From Nanobdellati archaeon (GTDB taxonomy: Archaea > EX4484-52 > WAPT01), in NCBI GenBank assembly GCA_027038505.1, contig JALVWC010000015.1, positions 1-46,975 of the forward strand: DNA of 46,975 bases, written 5' to 3'. The notes below the pieces were generated by a model. That model saw only the letters and a list, made by a program, of their open reading frames with translations, was not told where the DNA came from and ran no database searches. The first letter of the stretch is position 1. The number at the start of each line of letters is the position of its first letter. A program made the translations under genes and the position numbers. This document shows positions 24,105-25,327 of the stretch, piece by piece.

Positions 24105-24181
24105 TGGTGGGGCGGCGGGGATTCGAACCCCGGACACCGCGGTCTTCAGCCGCGCGCTCTCCCAGGCTGAGCTACCGCCCC
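24105..24181 (-). tRNA. tRNA-Phe (anticodon GAA), 3' CCA encoded
   Basis: Reverse strand GGGGCGGTAGCTCAGCCTGGGAGAGCGCGCGGCTGAAGACCGCGGTGTCCGGGGTTCGAATCCCCGCCGCCCCACCA. Confidence 0.95.
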
Positions 24182-24324: not shown

Positions 24325-24425
24325 AATAGTTTTATAGCTTGATGCAGCACTTACCAAGAAAGAATATTTACTGGTATAAAACTAATTGATATCCTGTCAT
24401 CGATCAAAAATTTTTTGTAATTCCG

Positions 24426-25121
24426 TTATCCTGTGGAATATCCTGTAGAAGGTCTCGTTGGCAAACTCAAAGCTAAACTCCCACTTTCCTTATGGGTTTC
24501 GGCAGCTCTTATAAGAACGTCGAGCCATCTAGCCGCCTCAACAGGATAATTTCCTATTGCGGTCTCTTCAGCCAGCATTATTCCCCATGCGCCCGCGTTC
24601 ACAGCATTGAAAACATCCACCGCCTCAGCCCTTGTTGGCTCAGCGTTATTAACCATAGATTTAAGCACTTCCGTTGCGACTATGAACGGCTTGTCGTAGC
24701 GGTTGCAGACCTCTATTATTCTCTGCTGCAGCATCGGCACCATGTGAATTCCGAACTCTTTGCCGAGATCACCTCTGGCAATCATGACCATGTCACTTCC
24801 CTTCACGATATCCTCCAAGTTCTGAATAGCCTCCATTGTTTCTATCTTCGCACAAATTGGAAGATCGGCAAGCCTTCTTGCGTTTTCAAGGCAAGATCTC
24901 TTCCTGACAAAGGAGAGAGCAACGGTAGCACTTTCTGGAAGTTCCAGCCTCTCGAGAACGCTCCAGTGCCTTACATCAATCAGCACATCCCTGAAGCCTA
25001 TATCTACCTCATCGGTGTATGCGGTATTTATCCTTGCAACATCCATCCCGGCTTGTTTTAACTCTTCTATGAGATGTTTGGATGCCGGGCCTATCGTACA
25101 TATTATCTTTGTCCTGCGCAT
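24426..25121 (-). CDS. Pyruvate-kinase-like protein, truncated/minimal (possible frameshift near 3' end)
   Basis: RRTKIICTIGPAS, VALSFVRKRS, CAKIETMEAIQNLEDIV, MVMIARGDLGKEFG, PFIVATEVLKSM...EPTRAEAVDVFNAV; far shorter than canonical enzyme. Confidence 0.8.
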   Translation of the reverse strand: MRRTKIICTIGPASKHLIEELKQAGMDVARINTAYTDEVDIGFRDVLIDVRHWSVLERLELPESATVALSFVRKRSCLENARRLADLPICAKIETMEAIQNLEDIVKGSDMVMIARGDLGKEFGIHMVPMLQQRIIEVCNRYDKPFIVATEVLKSMVNNAEPTRAEAVDVFNAVNAGAWGIMLAEETAIGNYPVEAARWLDVLIRAAETHKESGSLALSLPTRPSTGYSTG

Positions 25122-25251
25122 AAGACAATTACTTTTCCACATAAATATATAAATTTTTCGTTATTTAACGAGAAATTATTTCGGCAAGTGACGTTGATAA
25201 CTTTCGAAAAAAATTTGCACAATTCTTTAATCATTTTTAGAAGTAGCAAAA

Positions 25252-25327
25252 TGGCGCCCCCGCCAGGACTCGAACCTGGGACAACGCGGTTAACAGCCGC
25301 GCGCTCTACCTGCTGAGCTACGGGGGC
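25252..25327 (-). tRNA. tRNA-Asn (anticodon GTT), 3' CCA encoded
   Basis: Reverse strand GCCCCCGTAGCTCAGCAGGTAGAGCGCGCGGCTGTTAACCGCGTTGTCCCAGGTTCGAGTCCTGGCGGGGGCGCCA. Confidence 0.95.

Follow-up and report, generated by a model that had tools for sequence, protein, structure and literature searches.

Introduction

Pyruvate kinase (PK) is the textbook case of an enzyme that owes its kinase function to a mobile lid, and ordinary pyruvate kinases also decarboxylate oxaloacetate as a side activity. The archaeal-type pyruvate kinases, among them those of Sulfolobales (L034) and Micrarchaeota (L036), are about 475 aa long and possess the lid (B) domain, the C domain, helix alpha2, the GPxIR hinge, and the EKD motif. 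The HpcH/HpaI aldolase and citrate lyase family belongs to the same PEP/pyruvate barrel superfamily and handles enolates in a lidless barrel with its metal at Glu/Asp. A third point of reference is engineered: PDB entry 7qdn is a human liver PK from which the B domain was deliberately deleted while the C domain was retained, and it indicates that the A domain can fold without the lid; no paper text on its activity was found. Our literature search, which covered sources outside the subscription journals, likewise returned no published description of natural lidless pyruvate kinases. Such proteins, if kept by selection, would reveal what a barrel on its own is capable of, and they bear on the question of whether an older enolate-handling barrel acquired kinase activity or whether that activity can be taken away from it.

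Here we describe a PK-like protein of 231–238 aa encoded by a small-genome, DPANN-type Nanobdellati archaeon (assembly GCA_027038505.1) on a 46,975-nt stretch of contig JALVWC010000015.1, referred to below as the window. It shares the whole PEP/Mg site with the archaeal-type enzymes L034 and L036, to which it is 45–49% identical over residues 74–226, but it is without their lid, C domain, alpha2, GPxIR hinge, and EKD motif. The HpcH/HpaI family differs from it in sequence, the match falling under the cut-off, and in the Lys of PK, which our protein keeps.

Gene, Product, and Missing Domains

The gene lies in an open reading frame on the minus strand (24426–25142, 238 aa), which contains all the motifs quoted in an earlier sequence-only reading of this DNA. 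That reading had given the extent as 24397–25121. Its upper limit is the second ATG of the frame (MRRTKII) and is likely the true start, for a product of 231 aa, because a TTTATATA box ends 24 nt ahead of it, a spacing that fits a leaderless archaeal mRNA, and because similarity to pyruvate kinases begins there; its lower limit is too generous, since the stop codon sits at 24426–24428 and leaves 24397–24425 non-coding. The features of the locus are collected in Table 1.

Table 1. Features of the PK-like locus, in window coordinates
Feature	Positions	Strand	Basis
PK-like gene with its probable extent (231 aa + stop)	24426..25121	-	ORF, Pfam PK, TATA-to-ATG distance, dN/dS; longer ORF from 25142 (238 aa)
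N-terminal PK segment beta1-alpha1-beta2 (TKIICTIGPAS...ARIN), with R37 and N39	25014..25121	-	PF00224 profile 1-38, residue table
Collapsed segment without alpha2 and B (lid) domain; beta3 VLIDV (53-57, D56) and short alpha3 (60-65) kept	24927..25013	-	AF2 models, alignment
C-terminal barrel segment beta4-beta8: K99, E101 (AKIE), D125 (ARGDLG), T157 (VAT), E193 (MLAEET)	24534..24926	-	PF00224 profile 192-327, residue table
tRNA-Asn (gtt), upstream neighbour	25252..25327	-	
tRNA-Phe (gaa), downstream neighbour	24105..24181	-	
TATA-box-like TTTATATA, BRE-like purine stretch ahead	25146..25153	-	sequence; identical in sister species G002
Palindrome of 14 bp without mismatches (TCGTTA-N2-TAACGA), immediately ahead of the TATA-like box	25158..25171	.	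repeat search; conserved in sister species G002

Membership of the PK family is clear: the Pfam PK profile (PF00224) matches the protein with 167.4 bits against a curated cut-off of 30 (E 5.6e-49), and the best PDB sequence matches are pyruvate kinases (E 2.3e-40). The pyruvate kinase equivalog TIGR01064 scores 207.3 bits, below its cut-off of 306.4, and the HpcH/HpaI aldolase profile PF03328 scores 14.9 bits, below its cut-off of 25. PF00224 aligns only over profile positions 1–38 and 192–327, with a gap at 39–191, so that neither the lid stretch nor the C domain is present, and the frame ends after the last barrel helix (alpha8); the earlier description of a minimal PK-like protein lacking the B and C domains is thus borne out. 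A tblastn search with eight full-length pyruvate kinases found no further PK pieces in the roughly 1 kb of flanking DNA on each side, and a second species of the genus, represented by an independently named MAG, has the same form; a sequencing or frameshift artefact with lost pieces nearby was rejected on these grounds. In a profile search, the protein was the sole PK match in the genome (G000).

Predicted Fold and Active Site

Two AlphaFold2 (AF2) runs were made with different alignments built from window and locus proteins, one of full-length pyruvate kinases and one of fragments, in which the lid was unable to bias the middle of the protein. The models agree (mean pLDDT 89.1, pTM 0.84) and both show eight strands, at residues 12–17, 35–39, 53–57, 72–76, 96–100, 118–122, 153–156, and 187–190; the predicted barrel is therefore complete, and the lid and helix alpha2, whose place is taken by a loop (40–52), are all that is missing from the barrel part, alpha3 being short. 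The AlphaFold check that the sequence-only reading had proposed accordingly returns a full barrel, contrary to its own claim that part of the barrel had been removed. Foldseek searches of the PDB with either model returned only pyruvate kinases among the top 50, and both models matched the lid-deleted 7qdn (TMq 0.77–0.78).

An alignment of 36 full-length pyruvate kinases has 22 invariant columns outside the C domain, and the protein keeps 19 of them, including R37, N39, D56, K99, E101, R123-G124-D125, T157, and E193, so that the reported retention of the K and E of AKIE and the D of ARGDLG (K99, E101, and D125) is confirmed. By motif, we equate R37, N39, D56, K99, E101, D125, and T157 with rabbit R72, N74, D112, K269, E271, D295, and T327, D56 being placed by MAFFT in agreement with strand 3 of the AF2 models, and we take the kept residues to be those that serve PEP, Mg2+, and proton transfer in PK. 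The three lost columns, namely the G and R of the GPxIR hinge (here H59 and L63) and the D of the lid-ending EKD motif, all fall at or beside the lid position; the lid Asp and EKD positions are gapped, the lid's nearly invariant D-G is absent, and the nearly invariant His after RxNFS is a Tyr. In pyruvate kinases, MgADP binding or hydrolysis-free transfer is served by this His together with alpha2, the Arg of the hinge, and the Asp residues of the lid. Judged from this residue pattern, the PEP/pyruvate–Mg half of the site is intact and the nucleotide (ADP) half gone.

Two motif changes had been taken as signs of altered chemistry. The replacement of RxNFSH by RINTAY is no such sign, since the full-length PK of Bathycorpusculum (L045) also has RINTAYG; in the change from MLSGET to MLAEET only the S-to-A substitution is unusual, because MLSEET is common in ordinary pyruvate kinases. 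A protein that keeps its PEP/Mg residues but has lost the nucleotide side is nonetheless read most economically as having a changed chemistry or a role other than that of a kinase, and this proposal of the sequence-only reading stands on a protein under selection and on that residue pattern, its arguments from barrel loss and from RINTAY having fallen away.

The explanation we favour, and hold tentatively, is that of a functional single-domain PK-family enzyme that performs enolate chemistry on PEP, pyruvate, or oxaloacetate without phosphorylating ADP. From the removal of the ADP-binding half (lid, GPxIR hinge, and alpha2) we infer that phosphoryl transfer to ADP would be lost. PEP, pyruvate, or oxaloacetate would still be bound through Mg2+ at the Lys/Glu/Asp/Thr site, and the reaction, on which we are less certain, would be metal-dependent enolate chemistry, most likely the decarboxylation of oxaloacetate or a related C–C lyase reaction, because ordinary pyruvate kinases already have the former as a side activity; net PEP–pyruvate conversion in the cell would be left to PEP synthase. 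Counted against this explanation are the altered barrel mouth (S76 to A, SxET to AEET, and W186-G187), the position of the gene, which stands alone between two tRNA genes with no operon context, and its narrow distribution, two species having the gene and a third of the genus being without it.

Distribution, Selection, and Upstream Region

G002, a sister species in the same genus, carries an ortholog of 234 aa that is 92% identical and lies in the same gene order, and comparison of the two genes gives a dN/dS of 0.11 at a dS of 0.34, neighbouring genes ranging from 0.04 to 0.18. The gene has no stop or frameshift, and its length and catalytic residues are conserved in both species. An isolated pseudogene, the outcome that the sequence-only reading had set against itself, is ruled out by this dN/dS and the intact ortholog. 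A decaying relic of PK would account for the loss of two domains, the long branch in the tree (1.3–1.5 changes per site), and the patchy presence, but the same selection, the intact frame with its conserved residues and length, and a promoter region nearly identical between the two species make it very unlikely.

Among 61 related genomes, the lidless single-domain form is found only in G000 and G002. The third species of the genus, G001 (96% complete), is without any PK, and elsewhere in the order there are, depending on the family, full-length pyruvate kinases, a 370-aa PK without the C domain (family f2), or none, the last including complete genomes of another family; the two f2 proteins (L023 and L024) are 368–370 aa long, with the lid present and the C domain absent. 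In G001, the same two tRNA genes and conserved flanking genes enclose other open reading frames (L066 7844–9182), by eye membrane phosphatidyltransferase-like and YdjM-like, so that the slot between the tRNA genes is variable. The family phylogeny that had been called for places the PK-like protein with archaeal pyruvate kinases, a grouping whose support (90/58) is not firm; descent from the full-length pyruvate kinases of the same order is not supported by this best tree, though its deep branches are weak.

Between the tRNA-Asn gene and the longer reading frame lie 109 bp (25143–25251) that match those of the sister species except for two substitutions and a single 2-base gap; they are far more conserved than the synonymous sites of the gene, at which the difference is 0.27 per site. 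They contain the palindrome of Table 1 (in the window, one inverted repeat found against 0.08 expected, with up to one mismatch allowed), which may be an operator; it occurs in a single copy in the genome, which led us to reject a regulon. Rfam recognized no upstream RNA element apart from the tRNAs. The conserved upstream DNA and the unique palindrome fit a regulated gene, without being proof of one.

Lidless Pyruvate Kinases in Chloroflexota

A second natural form was found on a Dehalococcoidales chromosome (L035, 6001–6720), which encodes a PK that lacks the B domain and retains the C domain. Of 121 sampled genomes of this order, 46 have PK matches, and in 15 of these the match skips profile positions of about 79–179. 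Fourteen of the 15 lidless reading frames are intact, 59–69% identical to L035 over their length, and about 385 aa long, and all 14 (L035 and L101–L113) keep the PEP/Mg residues, which we count in favour of the explanation preferred for the archaeal protein; in the remaining one (L114, G077:C52), the gene is split into three reading frames by frameshifts, reflecting either assembly error or decay. In most of the genomes concerned, the lidless copy is the only PK match. In one, G182, it exists beside a full-length PK, a hint that the two differ in role, although contamination of this MAG is possible. Gene neighbours are conserved among close relatives only.

These proteins resemble the archaeal one in the absence of the B domain, in the same PEP/Mg residues, and in a relaxed S/H of RxNFSH (RLNLAYG), and differ from it in retaining alpha2 and the C domain. 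They form a firm clade (100/99) that is sister to a full-length Chloroflexota PK (98/92), and the lid was therefore probably lost independently in this phylum. In the best tree, the archaeal and Chloroflexota lidless proteins do not form one clade, but a constraint joining them is not rejected (p-AU 0.216); taken together, the trees suggest that the lid was probably lost at least twice. The existence of lidless pyruvate kinases in at least two natural forms is more interesting than a single archaeal protein would be. It is conceivable, though we regard it as doubtful, that nature has repeatedly arrived at a new enolate enzyme (a decarboxylase or aldolase-type lyase) by removing the lid, once as a bare barrel in a DPANN archaeon and once with the C domain in Chloroflexota.

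Metabolic Setting and Competing Functions

The G000 assembly, which is 94% complete, encodes enolase, a canonical PEP synthase of 815 aa, and a POR_N protein; neither PGK nor GTP-type PEP carboxykinase (PF00821) was found in it, and the latter result lends no pathway support to an oxaloacetate role. The sequence-only reading had suggested looking for a second PK or a PEP synthase, of which only the PEP synthase is there. This enzyme is present in 32 of the 34 genomes searched in the order and in every genome of the genus; the PEP–pyruvate step is covered by PEP synthase and independent of the PK-like protein.

Two other functions have to be weighed against this background. The protein might still be a pyruvate kinase, slow and lidless, that makes ATP from PEP: it keeps the whole PEP/Mg site, it is the only PK homologue in a genome in which PGK was not found, so that the PK step would be the obvious glycolytic source of ATP, and most of the Chloroflexota genomes just described have no PK match besides the lidless one. 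We consider this rather improbable, since the elements named above for MgADP binding or transfer are gone, PEP synthase is present, and neither G001 nor the complete genomes of a different family in the order have any PK. The protein could instead be without catalytic activity and be kept for its binding of PEP or pyruvate, as a sensor or as a partner subunit (of PEP synthase, for example). The missing nucleotide half beside an intact PEP site, the private and apparently regulated transcription unit with its conserved palindrome at the promoter, and the presence of PEP synthase throughout the genus are consistent with such a binder; the catalytic Lys and Thr are kept, which a pure binder would need less, and G001 has PEP synthase without the PK-like protein. 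On balance, we judge an idle binder unlikely, if slightly less so than a slow kinase, and the reading as an enolate enzyme without kinase activity remains the one we prefer.

The distinction matters for annotation, which would label lidless proteins as pyruvate kinase and credit the cell with an ATP-making glycolysis that is possibly absent. For DPANN archaea of deep-sea vents, modified EMP pathways have been reported, and 75% of the MAGs had calls for PGK and PYK (PMC8091004); this figure counts annotated genes, and a lidless protein like the present one would be called PYK.

Two further observations concern the same genome. Another PPDK_N/PEP-synthase-like protein, strongly diverged and about 800 aa long, is encoded at G000:C19:12205-13110 (L065 6095–8497) and occurs in all three genomes of the genus. 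Within the window, an ATP-cone domain is fused to an Mrr-type nuclease domain at 592–1437 on the plus strand.
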